DNA of 64,000 nucleotides from Tianweitania populi (GTDB lineage: Bacteria; Pseudomonadota; Alphaproteobacteria; Rhizobiales; Rhizobiaceae): NCBI RefSeq assembly GCF_014652875.1, contig NZ_BMZQ01000002.1:1-64000 (forward strand). The letters run 5' to 3'. Position numbers and translations under genes: made by a program. Under the pieces are notes generated by a model. The model saw nothing but the letters and a program-made list of their open reading frames with translations, did no database searches and was not told the DNA's origin. Every line of letters starts with the position of its first letter. The first letter of the stretch is position 1. Of the stretch, positions 52,314-59,511 are shown piece by piece.

Positions 52314-52868
52314 TCAGGCGCGGCGAATGAAACGAATAACCGTTTCGCCGTAGTTGCGCTCGTCTTCGGTCACGAAGCCTTGAGGCAGGTCGAACGGGGC
52401 GGCGGCACTTTCTTCCACCACACACAGAACATCAGGCTCGAGCCATCCGCCCTTCAAGGCAGACAGCAGGGCGGCCTCGCCGAGTTGCTTGTTATAAGGC
52501 GGGTCGGCAAAAAGCAGGCCGAAGGGCTGCAGGGTGCCGACCGGACCAAGCGAGGTCGCATCGCGGCGAAAGATCCGGGTGCGCCCTTGCAGGCTAAAGG
52601 CTTCGACATTTTCGCGGATCAAGCCGCGGCCTTCCGCGCCTTCCTCGATGAACACAGCGCTGGCAGCACCACGCGACACGGCTTCAAGCCCGAGCGCGCC
52701 CGTTCCCGCAAAGAGATCGAGCACGCGCCGGCCTTTCAGCGCATCGGGGAAGCGATGGGCAAGCACGTTGAAGACCGCTTCGCGGGTGCGGTCGGTGGTG
52801 GGGCGGATGGACTGCGTGCGGGGCGTGGCGAGCGCGCGCCCGCGCAGCTCACCGCCGACGATCCGCAT
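52314..52868 (-). CDS. rsmD: 16S rRNA (guanine966-N2)-methyltransferase RsmD
   Basis: 184 residues. MRIVGGELRGRALATPRTQS is the typical start, RVLDLFAGTGALGLEAVSRG the SAM loop, and LLFADPPYNKQ the DPPY catalytic motif. It modifies G966 of 16S rRNA in the small-subunit head. I chose the ATG at 52866-52868; the open frame extends 43 codons further, but that part is the shared end of the rluB-like gene. The start lies 20 bases inside the rluB gene, so they are translated from one mRNA. Confidence 0.94.
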   Translation of the reverse strand: MRIVGGELRGRALATPRTQSIRPTTDRTREAVFNVLAHRFPDALKGRRVLDLFAGTGALGLEAVSRGAASAVFIEEGAEGRGLIRENVEAFSLQGRTRIFRRDATSLGPVGTLQPFGLLFADPPYNKQLGEAALLSALKGGWLEPDVLCVVEESAAAPFDLPQGFVTEDERNYGETVIRFIRRA

Positions 52869-54876
52869 TTCTTCCGCCGCTCCTCGGACCACCGCCGGGT
52901 CCACCACGCTTCGGACCATCATTGCCGCGGCTTTCGCCGCCGGCGCGTGGACCAGCCTCGCTCCTCGGCTTGAACGAGCGGGTCTCCGGCCTGTCACCGC
53001 CGGATGGACGATCCTTGTTGAACGGACGCTTGTCGCCGAACGGCTTCTTGGCGAAGGGCTTGTCGCCTGCAGGACGCGGAGCGCGATCTTCGCTGCGAGT
53101 TTCCGGCCGGTCGCGCTTTACATAGGACTGACCCTCGCTGGAGCGTGCACGGTAGGGCTTGGCTGCTCCTTCCTCGCGGTCGCCACGCGGCGCGCCGAAA
53201 CCACCTTCCGGACGGTCGCGCTTGACGAAGGGGCGCCCTTCGGTCGGGCGCGCACGATATGGCTTCGCACCGCCCTCTTCACGGTTTTCGCGGGGGCCGC
53301 TCTCCCGGGGCTTGAAGCTGCGGCCTTCGGAGCTGGCATCGCTGCGATAGGGCCGGTCGGAGGATGGGCGCGAGCGTGGTGCGCGCGCTTCATCGCGTGC
53401 TGCTCGTTCGGCCGCTTCCGCCTCGACCTTCTTGTCGCTTCTCGGTCGCGCGCCGGGTGCCATCCAGACATTGGCATTGCGGCGGGGCGGCGGTGGCGCG
53501 CGCTCTTCTTCGCGCTTGCCGCGCGGACCCGCTCCGCCCGATTTGAAGCCGCCTGGCTTATCGCCGAACCGGCCAGCGGGTTTGTCGCCGAAGCGATCCG
53601 GCTTGTCGCCAAAGCTGCGCGGCTTGTCGCCGAACCGGCCTTGTGGCTTGGTTTGCAGCCGGTCCAGCATGTCGGTGCGGTGGTCTTCACGCTCCCGCTT
53701 GCGGTTCGGCGTGCCTTCGCTGCGACGTTCACGCTGCGGTTCTTCCGCGCGCGCAGGCGCAGGCGCAGCGCGGTCGGGCAGATCGAACACTGCGCCGGAT
53801 TCGGCCATCAAGCGTTCACCCAGCTGGTCACGCAGATAGCGGCCCTTCAGCTCGGACACGGTGCCTTCCGGCAACTCACCCAGCTGGAACGGGCCGTAGG
53901 AAATGCGGATCAGGCGGGTGACGTCGAGACCGAGCGCCCCCAGCACGTTCTTGACCTCGCGGTTCTTGCCTTCACGCAAACCGATCGTCAGCCAGGCATT
54001 GGAGCCCTGCTGCCGGTCGAGCGCGGCTTCGATCGAGCCATAGAATACGCCGTCGACGGCGATGCCGTTCTTCAATTCGGCAAGCTTGGCCTCATCCACC
54101 GTGCCGTGAACGCGGACGCGGTAACGCCGCAGCCAGCCGGTGGCCGGCAGTTCCAGAACGCGCGCCAGCCCGCCATCGTTGGTCAGCAGCAGCAGGCCCT
54201 CGGTATTGATGTCGAGGCGACCAACGGTGAGCAGACGCGGAAGATCCTTGGGCAGCACGTCGAACACTGTGCGGCGGCCTTCCGGGTCCTTGTTGGTGGT
54301 GACCACACCACCCGGCTTGTGGAACAGGAACAGCCGCGTGCGCTCGATCTCGGGGATCGGATTGCCGTCGAGTTCGATGCGATCATTGGCGGTGACGTTG
54401 CGGGCCGGGCTGTCGAGCACCACACCGTTGACCCGGATGCGGCCGTCGGCGATCAGCGCTTCGGCATCGCGGCGCGAGGAAATGCCCGCGCGCGCCAGCC
54501 GCTTGGCGATGCGCTCGCCATTCGTCGGATCTTCCACCTCGACCATGCGGCGGCGCGGTGGCGGCGCATCGCCGTCACGCGGCTTGCGATCGCCGGACGG
54601 CCGGTCGCCGAAAGGCTTTCTGTCGCCGAACGATTTGCGTTCGCCAAACGGCTTGCGGTCATCGAACGGCCTGTCGCCGGCCGGACGATCGCCGCGTGGC
54701 TTGTCTCCATAGGGCTTGTCACCATGCGGCTTGGCGCCATAAGGCTTGTCGCCGCGCGGTTTGTCGGCGCGAGGGCGATCGTCTCGCGGCCTGTCACCCT
54801 GAGGGCGATCGCGGTCAGCGCGTGCGCCCGGGCGGCTGTTGCCGGGCTTGAATGGTTTTTTGCGGTCGTCGTCCAT
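52849..54876 (-). CDS. rluB: 23S rRNA pseudouridine synthase (RluB type) with long disordered arms
   Basis: 675 residues; the usual bacterial enzyme is 240-320. Residues about 1-110 are a charged low-complexity arm of repeated GDKP/GDRP/DRKP units. The core follows: S4 RNA-binding domain ERIAKRLARAGISSRRDAEA (121-140), then the RluB/E/F block LLTVGRLDINTEGLLLLTND with catalytic Asp 222, and LREGKNREVKNVLGALG. From about 375 to the end is a second arm rich in Arg, Gly, Pro and Lys (GDKPxxFGDKP, DRPE, RRR end). It probably modifies U2605 of 23S rRNA; the arms may bind RNA. ATG at 54874-54876. Confidence 0.9.
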   Translation of the reverse strand: MDDDRKKPFKPGNSRPGARADRDRPQGDRPRDDRPRADKPRGDKPYGAKPHGDKPYGDKPRGDRPAGDRPFDDRKPFGERKSFGDRKPFGDRPSGDRKPRDGDAPPPRRRMVEVEDPTNGERIAKRLARAGISSRRDAEALIADGRIRVNGVVLDSPARNVTANDRIELDGNPIPEIERTRLFLFHKPGGVVTTNKDPEGRRTVFDVLPKDLPRLLTVGRLDINTEGLLLLTNDGGLARVLELPATGWLRRYRVRVHGTVDEAKLAELKNGIAVDGVFYGSIEAALDRQQGSNAWLTIGLREGKNREVKNVLGALGLDVTRLIRISYGPFQLGELPEGTVSELKGRYLRDQLGERLMAESGAVFDLPDRAAPAPARAEEPQRERRSEGTPNRKREREDHRTDMLDRLQTKPQGRFGDKPRSFGDKPDRFGDKPAGRFGDKPGGFKSGGAGPRGKREEERAPPPPRRNANVWMAPGARPRSDKKVEAEAAERAARDEARAPRSRPSSDRPYRSDASSEGRSFKPRESGPRENREEGGAKPYRARPTEGRPFVKRDRPEGGFGAPRGDREEGAAKPYRARSSEGQSYVKRDRPETRSEDRAPRPAGDKPFAKKPFGDKRPFNKDRPSGGDRPETRSFKPRSEAGPRAGGESRGNDGPKRGGPGGGPRSGGRNADRRR

Positions 54877-54951
54877 GTGGCCTTCGTCGTGTTCGGCGGA
54901 TAGATACCCGCTTCGCCTTGGCGTTGCGAGGTTTATAGTGCGGATACGATC

Positions 54952-55404
54952 ATGACGCAGCCGGATTTCATGGCAATCGCCTTCGAACAGGCGGAAAAAG
55001 CCGCAGCGAGAGGCGAAGTGCCCGTTGGCGCCGTGATTGTCGGCAACGGCGCGGTCATTGCTGCGGGCGGAAACGAAACGCGCTTGCGCAACGATCCCAC
55101 TGCCCATGCCGAGATCGTGGCAATCCGCAGCGCCTGCGAACAGCTCGGTCAGGAAAGGCTGACCGGTCTCGATCTTTACGTGACGCTGGAGCCCTGCGCC
55201 ATGTGCGCGGCGGCGATTTCGTTCGCCAGGATGCGCCGGCTTTATTACGGCGCTTCAGACCCGAAGGGCGGGGGCGTCGAGCATGGCGGCCGCTTCTTCA
55301 CACAGCCGACCTGCCATCACCAGCCGGACATCTATTCCGGCTTGGGCGAGACGCGCTCGGCAGATTTGCTGCGGCGCTTCTTTGCCGGGAAGCGTGACGC
55401 TTAA
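54952..55404 (+). CDS. tadA: tRNA adenosine deaminase TadA
   Basis: 150 residues. Zinc deaminase motifs: AHAEIVAIRSA (HAE, catalytic Glu) and VTLEPCAMCAAAISFARM (PCxxC). EVPVGAVIVGNG and FFTQPTCHHQPDIYSG complete the TadA pattern. It makes inosine at the wobble base of tRNA-Arg(ACG). The ATG at 54952 is the start. It converges on the lipoprotein gene; the two stops overlap (TTAA at 55401-55404). Confidence 0.93.
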   Translation: MTQPDFMAIAFEQAEKAAARGEVPVGAVIVGNGAVIAAGGNETRLRNDPTAHAEIVAIRSACEQLGQERLTGLDLYVTLEPCAMCAAAISFARMRRLYYGASDPKGGGVEHGGRFFTQPTCHHQPDIYSGLGETRSADLLRRFFAGKRDA

Positions 55405-56298: not shown

Positions 56299-59200
56299 TC
56301 AGATCCGGCCGAGCGCCTTCAGTTCGCGCAAAGCGGCCGCATCGCGGGCCGACACGTCGGGATAATCGGCATCGGTGCCGACATCATCCGTATAGCGCCA
56401 GGAGCGCGCGCATTTCGTGCCGGACGCCAAGGCCGGAACCACCGCGACGCCGGCCACATCGTCCAGCGCGAACGCGCCTGAAGGTGCGGCTTCGCTCGAC
56501 AGGGTCAGGCCCGAAGTGATGGCGATCTCAGCGAGGTCCACATCCGATACGGCTGACGCAAGATCGGCATCGGTGACGTAGACGGTCGGCGCGGCTTCCA
56601 GCGAGGAGCCGATCGCCTTCTTGGCGCGTTCGATTTCGAGGGCTGCCGTGACGACTTTGCGGACCTGACGGACCTTGCGCCACTTCGCAGCAAGCGCATC
56701 GTCGCGCCATTCGGCCGGCAGATCCGGGAACTGCTCGAGATGCACCGAGATGGCATCCGGGTTGCGGTCGCGCCAGGCTTCTTCCGTGGTGAAGGGCAGC
56801 ATGGGTGCGAGCCACTTCACGACGCAGTTGAAGAGGTGCCGCACGACCACGAGCGAGGCCTTGCGGCGGGTGCTCGACGGCGCGTCGCAATAGAGCGCGT
56901 CCTTGCGGATGTCGAAGTAGAAGGCCGACAGCTCTACCACCATGAAGTCGATCAGCGCACGCGTGATGCGCTTGAACTCGAACTCGTCATAGCCCTTGCG
57001 GACCAGCTCATCGAGTTCCGACAGCCGGTGCAGCATGAGCCGTTCAAGTTCCGGCATGTCGGCCAATGCGACGTCCTCGCCTTCGTCATGAGCGAGCGTG
57101 CCCAGCATCCAGCGGATGGTGTTGCGCAGCTTGCGGTAGGCGTCGATGTTGGTTTGCAGCACGTTCTTGCCGAGCCGCTGGTCTTCCCAGTAATCGGTGG
57201 TCATGACCCACAGGCGCAGGATATCGGCGCCGGACTGTTTCATGACATCCTGCGGAACGACCGTATTGCCGAGCGACTTCGACATCTTGCGGCCGTCCTC
57301 GTCCATGGTGAAGCCATGGGTGACAACGGCGTTGTAGGGCGCACGGCCGCGCGTGGCGCAGCTTTCCAGAAGCGAGGAATGGAACCAGCCGCGATGCTGG
57401 TCCGAGCCCTCGAGATAGACATCGGCCGGCCATTTTAGGTCGGGACGGTCTTCCAGCGTGAAGGTATGGGTCGAGCCCGAGTCGAACCAGACATCGAGGA
57501 TGTCGCGGACCATCGTCCAGGGTTCATTAGCGCGGGAGCCGAGGAAGCGCTCGCGGGCACCTTCCGCGAACCAGGCATCGGCGCCCTCTGCCTCGAAGGC
57601 TTCGAGGATGCGGGCATTGACGCCTTCATCCTTGAGCACATTGCCATCCTTGTCGGCGAAGGCGCAGATCGGCACGCCCCACGCCCTTTGCCGGGAAAGC
57701 ACCCAGTCGGGACGATCGGCGATCATGGCGCGCAGACGGGTCTGGCCCTGTTCGGGGACGAAGCGGGTGGCGTCGATGGCGGCGAGTGCGCGGGAGCGGA
57801 GGGTGTCGGGTGTACCAGCAGGATCCCCCTCCCCCTTGAGGGGAGAGGTTAGGGGTGGGGGTACTGAAGCGCCGAGTGCGTCATTACCCCCACCCGAACC
57901 TTCGGTTCGACCTCCCCTCAAGGGGGAGGTTGAAGAGGCCAAGCCATAGCCGTTCAGTTCCTTGTCCATATGGACGAACCATTGCGGCGTGTTGCGGAAG
58001 ATCACCGGCTTTTTGGAGCGCCAGGAATGCGGATAGGAGTGTTTGAGACGGCCGCGCGCAAACAGCGCGTTGGCAGCGATCAGGGCCTCGATGACGACCT
58101 TGTTGGCGTCGCCCTTCTTGCCGTTGTCATCGATCACGCGCGCAGGGCCGCCTTCTCGATCCGGCCCAAAGCCCGGCGCGTCTTTGGTGAAGTAGCCGGC
58201 GTCATCCACGGTGAAGGGGATGGCGGTGTCGATTCCTCGGGCGCGTAGCGATGGGGCTGCATCCATCCAGGCGTCGAAATCCTCGCGGCCGTGGCTGGGT
58301 GCCGTGTGGACGAAGCCGGTGCCGGCGTCATCGGTGACGTGGTCGCCGAGAAGAAGCGGGACGATAAAGGAGTAAGGCTCGACGCTTCCGCCCTCCTCCC
58401 ACTTGAGGGGAGGGGTAAGGGGTGGGGGTGCTGCGTTGGCGCCATCACCCCCACCCGAACCTTCGGTTCGACCTCCCCTCAAGGGGGAGGTTGAAGACAA
58501 GCCCTTCAGCGGATGTGAAAGCTGAATCGTAGCCAGTTCCGCGGCTGAGACATCGCGGATGAAGGTCAGCGTAAGCTTGGCCTTGGTCGCGGCATCTTCG
58601 GCTAGCTTCTTCGCAAAGATCAGCTTCTCGCCAGCGCGGGGGCCAAAATCGTTCTCGACGGATGCGACTTCATACAGGCCGTATTCAACACGGTCGGAAT
58701 AAGCGACAGCGCGGTTGCCGGGGATGGTCCACGGCGTCGTGGTCCAGATGACCACGCTTGCGCCGTCGAGGTCGGTCCCCTCGCCCACGCCGGTGGCAGC
58801 CAACGCATTCGCCGATGCGCTGTTGGCGCCGGATTGCACCGGGAACTTCACCCAGATCGTGTCCGACTCGTAGTCGTGATACTCGACCTCGGCCTCCGCC
58901 AGCGCCGTGCGCTCAACCACTGACCACATCACCGGCTTTGAGCCGCGATAAAGCTGGTCGGACATCGCGAACTTCAGCAGCTCGCCGGCGATGCGGGCTT
59001 CGGCGTGGAAGTTCATGGTGGTGTAGGGGTTCTTGAAGTCGCCGACAACGCCCAGGCGCTGGAACTCGGCACCCTGCACGCTGATCCAGCCAGCGGCGAA
59101 TTCGCGGCACTCCTTGCGGAACTCGTTGATATCAACCTGGTCCTTGTCGAGGCCCTTGGCGCGGTACTGTTCCTCGATCTTCCATTCGATCGGCAGGCCG

Positions 59201-59511
59201 TGGCAGTCCCAGCCCGGCACGTAATTAGAGTCGTAGCCGCGCATCTGGAAGGAGCGCGTGATGACGTCCTTCAGGATCTTGTTGAGCGCATGGCCGATAT
59301 GGATGTTGCCGTTGGCATAGGGCGGGCCGTCATGCAGGACGTATTTGGGTCGGCCGGAGCCACTTTCGCGAAGCTTGGCGTAGAGGTCCATCTCCTGCCA
59401 GCGCGCCACGATCTGCGGCTCCTTGTCCGGCAGGCCAGCGCGCATCGGGAAATCCGTCTGCGGCAGATAAAGGGTCTTGGAGTAATCGAGGGTTTCAGGC
59501 GTGTCGGACAT
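56299..59511 (-). CDS. ileS: Isoleucyl-tRNA synthetase carrying two in-frame repeat insertions
   Basis: 1070 residues; relatives in this order have roughly 970-1000. Class I motifs are intact: [15 protein letters not shown] at 65-79 and [10 protein letters not shown] around 740-749. The CP1 editing domain has [11 protein letters not shown] (256-266) and [12 protein letters not shown] (397-408). Between these, residues about 338-377, and again at about 525-565, lie two Pro/Gly-rich peptides beginning [17 protein letters not shown], encoded by repeats at 58390-58494 and 57825-57934. The first falls in the editing domain, the second before DWVLSRQR. Charging is expected to remain. The C-terminal CARSWRY region lacks full zinc Cys set, usual here. 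Start ATG at 59511. Confidence 0.94.
57825..57934. repeat. Palindromic repeat element inside ileS, copy 1
   Basis: About 110 bases beginning CCCCTCCCCCTTGAGGGG and ending CCCTCAAGGGGGAGGTTGA. It contains a perfect hairpin CGAACC-TTC-GGTTCG at its right third and complementary ends (CCTCCCC/GGGGGAGG). Nearly the same as copy 2, with a variable middle. It is read in frame in the gene on the minus strand. Confidence 0.85.
58390..58494. repeat. Palindromic repeat element inside ileS, copy 2
   Basis: About 105 bases, same orientation as copy 1. Both share ACCCCCACCCGAACC, TTCGGTTCGACCTCCCC and TCAAGGGGGAGGTTGAAGA, but differ in the middle (about 25 bases). Read in the same frame in ileS, giving a similar peptide. 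Confidence 0.85.

Follow-up and report, generated by a model that had tools for sequence, protein, structure and literature searches.

The ileS gene of Tianweitania populi, which encodes isoleucine--tRNA ligase (IleRS), contains two copies of a palindromic repeat, both of which leave its reading frame open. It is highly probable that a mobile, non-autonomous palindromic repeat was inserted twice in frame into ileS after this lineage had split from its congeners, and that the inserts are tolerated and likely to be translated. Moreover, the two IleRS loops concerned have repeatedly received inserts of several repeat families, which goes beyond the original prediction. That prediction, made from the letters of the window (the whole stretch of 64,000 nucleotides analysed here), proposed in-frame insertion of dispersed palindromic repeats, and it was supported by the presence of multiple copies, by the empty sites of the congeners and by the single reading frame of the element that is shared by its four copies within genes.

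In the window, ileS is one open frame of 1070 codons at 56299-59511 on the minus strand, which was identified by NCBIfam TIGR00392 (768.8 bits against a cut-off of 621.4) and also matched Pfam tRNA-synt_1. A repeat search returned a direct repeat pair in equal orientation within this frame, at 57825-57936 and 58392-58497, with 86% identity over 112 columns and gaps totalling 6 bases. Thus, two repeats lying in frame and in the same orientation were confirmed; their description as near-identical was slightly overstated and fits only a 59-base portion with 97% identity. The encoded peptides, which had been expected at about residues 338-377 and 525-565, were located at the residues given in Table 1, and both start with the same 17 residues. 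The hairpin predicted for each repeat was also recovered: both form long hairpins on the coding strand (-78.9 and -72.1 kcal/mol; z = -7.8 and -6.3), and none of 200 dinucleotide shuffles folded equally well. The 19-base palindrome arm occurred four times in the window at three or fewer mismatches, against an expectation of 0.06. Elsewhere in the window, a large frame on the minus strand (52849-55107) was noted by eye, in which long, low-complexity sequence with much Arg, Asp, Lys and Pro lies on both sides of an apparent pseudouridine synthase core.

Table 1. Positions in the window of the two ileS inserts and of their palindrome arms.
Feature	Position	Strand	Remark
Site 1 insert (palindromic repeat copy, residues 339-376)	58384..58497	-	absent in congeners G001, G002
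Site 2 insert (palindromic repeat copy, residues 526-566)	57814..57936	-	absent in congeners G001, G002
Outer arm, site 2 palindrome	57828..57846	-	pattern search, 1 mismatch
Outer arm, site 2 palindrome	57911..57929	+	pattern search, exact
Outer arm, site 1 palindrome	58395..58413	-	pattern search, 1 mismatch
Outer arm, site 1 palindrome	58472..58490	+	pattern search, exact

The repeat, named F1 in this study (the family names F1 to F6 were all coined here), is about 105-115 bases long and consists of a head-to-head pair of REP-like units, which were also found singly. The genome-wide search that the original prediction had suggested was carried out with the site 2 repeat and revealed a dispersed multi-copy family, with 35 match rows at 22 distinct places at E<=0.01 (weakest E 0.005). 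Near-full-length copies were found at 6 of the 22 places, and the others were partial, some of them paired at variable distance. Two of the near-full copies lie between genes, and four are in frame within genes that were recognised by Pfam: two in ileS, one in glyS (glycyl-tRNA synthetase beta) and one in uvrD/pcrA (UvrD/PcrA helicase). The gaps among these four copies are of 6 bases, and 2, 2, 1 and 3 of their six frames are open. The ileS inserts would add 35-46 residues in which Ser, Gly and Pro are abundant, and they are most likely translated. Two F1 half units in inverted order were also observed at C1:1538216-1538349 (L014/L018), in frame in an apparent N-terminal extension of UvrB that precedes the Pfam domains of this protein. 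GTAG was seen after a G-run in some F1 copies (uvrD, L009) and not in the ileS copies, as judged by eye only.

Several candidate origins of the repeat were rejected. Rfam 15 gave eight matches at E<=1, and none reached the gathering score (best 41 bits against 52.5), so that an RNA of a known Rfam family was discarded. At E<=0.001, Y1_Tnp (RAYT, PF01797) had no match in seven of ten genomes, including the present genome (G000), G144, G004 and G116, and was matched in G211, G193 and G241; mobilisation by a RAYT in this genome was therefore unsupported. A phage origin was dropped as there was no match among phage records. The repeat did occur in five plasmid records (two from Aminobacter and one each from Phyllobacterium, Pannonibacter and Methylobacterium), in parts only, none of which reached 80% of the query.

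Both ileS inserts are missing in the two other sequenced genomes of the genus, G001 and G002, and the DNA of these congeners aligns across the empty sites. The suggestion that IleRS is overlong held true, with a loop excess of 38 and 35 residues relative to G001 and of 38 and 46 residues relative to G002. The F1 query found no match in either congener at E<=1e-12, and it gave 6 and 7 match rows in G103 and G241 of another genus. Since the congeners have neither the inserts nor a repeat match at this threshold, the ileS insertions are recent; in the IleRS tree they are private to their own branch. With respect to MITE criteria, inverted repeats are present in F1, and no target-site duplication was seen at the ileS inserts in the DNA alignment with the congeners. 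Furthermore, glyS of G001 is empty at the corresponding place, and uvrD of the congeners carries a different insert where this genome has F1 (fold z -1.5 and -1.4).

Sequence matches place site 1 within the CP1 editing domain, a short distance ahead of a stretch of 20 residues. The query segment before it (247-285) matched the isolated CP1-domain chains 1ue0, 1udz and 1wny at E of about 3e-9, and the stretch past it gave a weak CP1-chain match (E 0.05) and 1wk8 at E 0.003. The claim that one insert falls within CP1 therefore holds at this level, with CP1-matching stretches on both sides of site 1, the second one weakly matched. Site 2 is a loop after a stretch of 13 residues; it follows QWF and is located after the CP1 insertion. 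At both sites the loops are shorter in S. aureus IleRS (1ffy) and in chain 8c9e, which suggests that the inserts sit at the protein surface.

The nearest named IleRS proteins belong to Mesorhizobium and other Hyphomicrobiales. Among 80 named loci, inserts at site 1 or site 2 were found in Mesorhizobium alhagi, Aureimonas glaciei, Rhodoplanes and a Boseaceae strain, and shorter inserts, which folded poorly or had no fold value, in two Devosia and one Pelagibacterium. Within the family, G004 and G022, from two other genera, have other inserts at both sites. A 268-residue query was matched in 245 of 247 family genomes, with at least two matches in 34 and a single match in 211; all of the 34, of which three came from the earlier loci and 31 were retrieved from this survey, and only some of the 211 were read. 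An insert of a palindromic family, recognised by its peptide and fold, is present at one or both sites in at least 20 of the 245 genomes (20 of the 34 read). The remaining split-match genomes comprise seven with an F4-type insert, four with another insert (G054, G059, G158, G218) and three with no insert at the sites, namely G246 (gene on two contigs), G251 (contig break) and G225 (other position). All ileS inserts of relatives that could be read across are in one frame. The insertion points vary by several residues within each loop, the insert peptides differ between lineages, and the L178 insert resembles a shortened remnant. The original prediction had been set against the case in which all close relatives carry the same peptides at the same places in unrelated DNA; what was found is that the congeners are empty and that relatives carry other repeats at these places. 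The draft contigs of G215 (L151) and G104 (L170) end inside ileS inserts, as is expected if the inserts are repeats.

An all-against-all comparison of 22 insert DNAs showed no mutual match at E<=1e-3 among F1, F2, F3 and the Rhodoplanes insert. Pieces of F1, F2 or F3 recur in F5 and F6, and short stretches of the Boseaceae insert match F1 and F2. There are thus at least four distinct insert groups, some of them mosaics, and the idea that the repeat families are all unrelated was rejected on account of the pieces shared by F5 and F6. F2 is dispersed in four of five genomes, with at least 36 match rows in G144, at least 11 in G211, at least 4 in G050 and 4 in G004, some rows being the two strands of one palindrome. 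Not every insert is demonstrated as a repeat: F2 had no match at E<=1e-12 among the matches listed for G116, F1 had none at this threshold in G085, and F4 gave one match in G051. The dispersal of F4 is unsupported by this single match, and F4 is best treated as a plain insert. In G144, 19 fetched stretches held 20 further F2 copies, of which three are in frame in Pfam-verified genes (one in cobN and two in glyS) and 17 lie outside any spanning Pfam-matched frame; one more copy is in ileS. The two copies in glyS of this genome (L283, C34:358000-360800) occupy separate places, and its cobN (L267, C45:243200-245750) carries an apparent composite F3/F2 palindromic insert.

Two other genes, glyS and uvrD, were chosen since the window genome has inserts there. 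For glyS, searched with its own flanks joined as an empty site, two matches were obtained in 25 of 130 genomes, and the break fell at or near our own insertion point, residue 151, in most genomes among the matches listed. Eighteen stretches were fetched and 14 inserts measured, 11 of which had z <= -3; the measured inserts resemble F1, F2, F3, F5 and F6. The four unmeasured stretches were F2-like (L252), F4-like (L264), unclassified (L262) and frame-split (L260, G072). This one glyS loop behaves like the two IleRS loops. For uvrD, two matches were found in 111 of 241 genomes, and 3 of the 17 inserts read had z <= -3; inserts are frequent in this loop, and few of them are proven to be palindromic. 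The frame was kept across the insert in 17 of 18 stretches for each gene. The gene halves lie in different frames in glyS of G072 (L260) and uvrD of G241 (L228), which may stem from a draft error, from gene breakage or from something else. In-frame insertion is the rule, with exceptions. As a control, a MutL segment of similar length gave two matches in 2 of 128 genomes, one of them at a contig break, and a single partial match only in G103.

Folding was compared among loop spans that were 28 residues or longer and included a few flanking residues; they came from 142 IleRS proteins after removal of short and duplicate rows, and L158 was left out since it has the same insert as M. alhagi L064 and apparently comes from the same genome. 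Fold z <= -3 was reached by 8 of 9 spans at site 1, 19 of 32 at site 2 and 1 of 43 at the control loop near residue 230; the Fisher p of 1e-10 for the two sites against the control is too small, as the rows are not independent. The control loop (residues 225-247; 58771-58839) is very length-variable in relatives and contains none of the site 1 or site 2 insert peptides; with one folding span among 43, it was rejected as a third repeat site. A FastTree phylogeny of 141 IleRS proteins, built with the three loops removed and with poor support for 39 of its 138 inner branches, implied at least 8 state changes at site 1 and at least 16 at site 2 (18 if each family is scored separately), F4 and unclassified inserts being treated as absent. 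These counts do not tell gain from loss; it is the distinct insert families that require separate gains.

On the reading that we prefer, F1 may have been moved in trans by a mobilising enzyme, and it would have entered ileS in frame on two occasions after the split from the two sequenced congeners. Such insertions would fall widely, and those within genes would persist only in permissive loops and open frames (1 to 3 of 6 in the four genic copies). The recurrence of the sites is most plausibly a matter of survivorship. Both loops appear to be under little length constraint, so that the inserts would be tolerated and probably close to neutral. A broader reading is that a few housekeeping loops (two in IleRS, one in GlyRS beta and one in UvrD) are long-term landing pads, in which elements enter, decay and are replaced dozens of times, with the insertion aimed or the hairpin or peptide useful; this seems unlikely. 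Distinctly unlikely is that the loops are preferred targets in DNA or transcript, that is, true insertion hot spots beyond permissive protein loops. The convergence of several families on two ileS loops and one glyS loop speaks for such targeting, as does the loop near residue 230, which varies in length and yet has hardly any folding insert. However, the insertion points shift within each loop, no common flanking motif was noticed by eye, and 17 of the 20 further F2 copies in G144 have no spanning Pfam-matched frame.

Retention by selection, for example because the inserts pause translation near the boundary of CP1 or serve as a functional flexible linker, would agree with very stable hairpins within an essential frame, with the location of site 2 past the CP1 insertion and with the repeated changes on the IleRS tree. 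It is nevertheless quite improbable, given that both congeners and 211 of the 245 family genomes are unsplit there that the peptides vary between lineages and that the L178 insert looks like a shortened remnant. An IleRS of normal length could also arise if the repeat RNA were excised or bypassed. The strong hairpin with its arms close together and the out-of-frame glyS of G072 and uvrD of G241 are compatible with this, but the four genic F1 copies share one open frame and differ by gaps of 6 bases, and the readable ileS inserts and nearly all those of glyS and uvrD keep one frame; none of this is required under excision or bypass, which we regard as very improbable. The chance of an assembly artefact is minimal: the genome is a draft of 16 contigs and two contigs of relatives end within such inserts, but the two ileS copies differ by 14% and lie within a 1.46 Mb contig, and independent genomes have inserts at the same sites. 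Tolerated in-frame insertion of a mobile palindrome is retained as the most probable explanation. It offers a replicated natural experiment on which loops can accommodate 35-100 foreign residues, one of them within the editing domain of a tRNA synthetase, and the question whether the inserts are neutral or useful can be tested with sister species that have or lack them.

Palindromic mosaic repeats of rhizobia include RIME, the Rhizobium-specific intergenic mosaic elements. Set side by side by description only, RIME are named as intergenic, whereas F1 is also intragenic. A parallel in architecture is provided by the Rickettsia palindromic elements (RPE) and their Wolbachia equivalents, described as stem-loop repeats of 105-146 bases with an open frame, which lie in frame in conserved genes as well as between genes (PMC2229807, PMC10969869). 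F1, with its about 105-115 bases, likewise falls within a size range of about 105-150 bases for palindromes with a long stem-loop, and it is found in frame in unrelated conserved genes (twice in ileS, and in glyS and uvrD) with one recurring peptide; the Rickettsia precedent invoked in the original prediction is apt as to how insertion works. In contrast to RPE, F1 occurs in Hyphomicrobiales and is G+C-rich, the likeness drawn here being one of architecture, and here several families repeatedly enter the same protein loops.

Intragenic REPs of the GTAG and CGTC families have been described as singlets and dimers in ORFs of many species, free-living ones included, with UvrD/REP helicase and tRNA synthetase genes among their hosts (Di Nocera et al. 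2013, PMC3733652). According to the same report, two Xanthomonas recB genes carry a REP at about the same site, and other genes of the same category carry REPs at different sites; 'ileS' is absent from its main text, the part considered here, as distinct from its supplementary gene list (Additional file 3). F1 units resemble these REPs in being single or head-to-head dimers dispersed in the genome, and differ in that one loop was hit many times across a bacterial family and in that the GTAG/CGTC tag is unclear in F1. A search of titles and abstracts, with subscription journals mostly outside its coverage, found no report of palindromic inserts in ileS. Protein-coding palindromes are a known kind of element, and their many-fold convergence on fixed loops is new, as far as the literature search tells. 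Whereas the known protein-coding palindromes are scattered cases, the present ones result from many entries by several families into the same essential-enzyme loops, all within one bacterial family.
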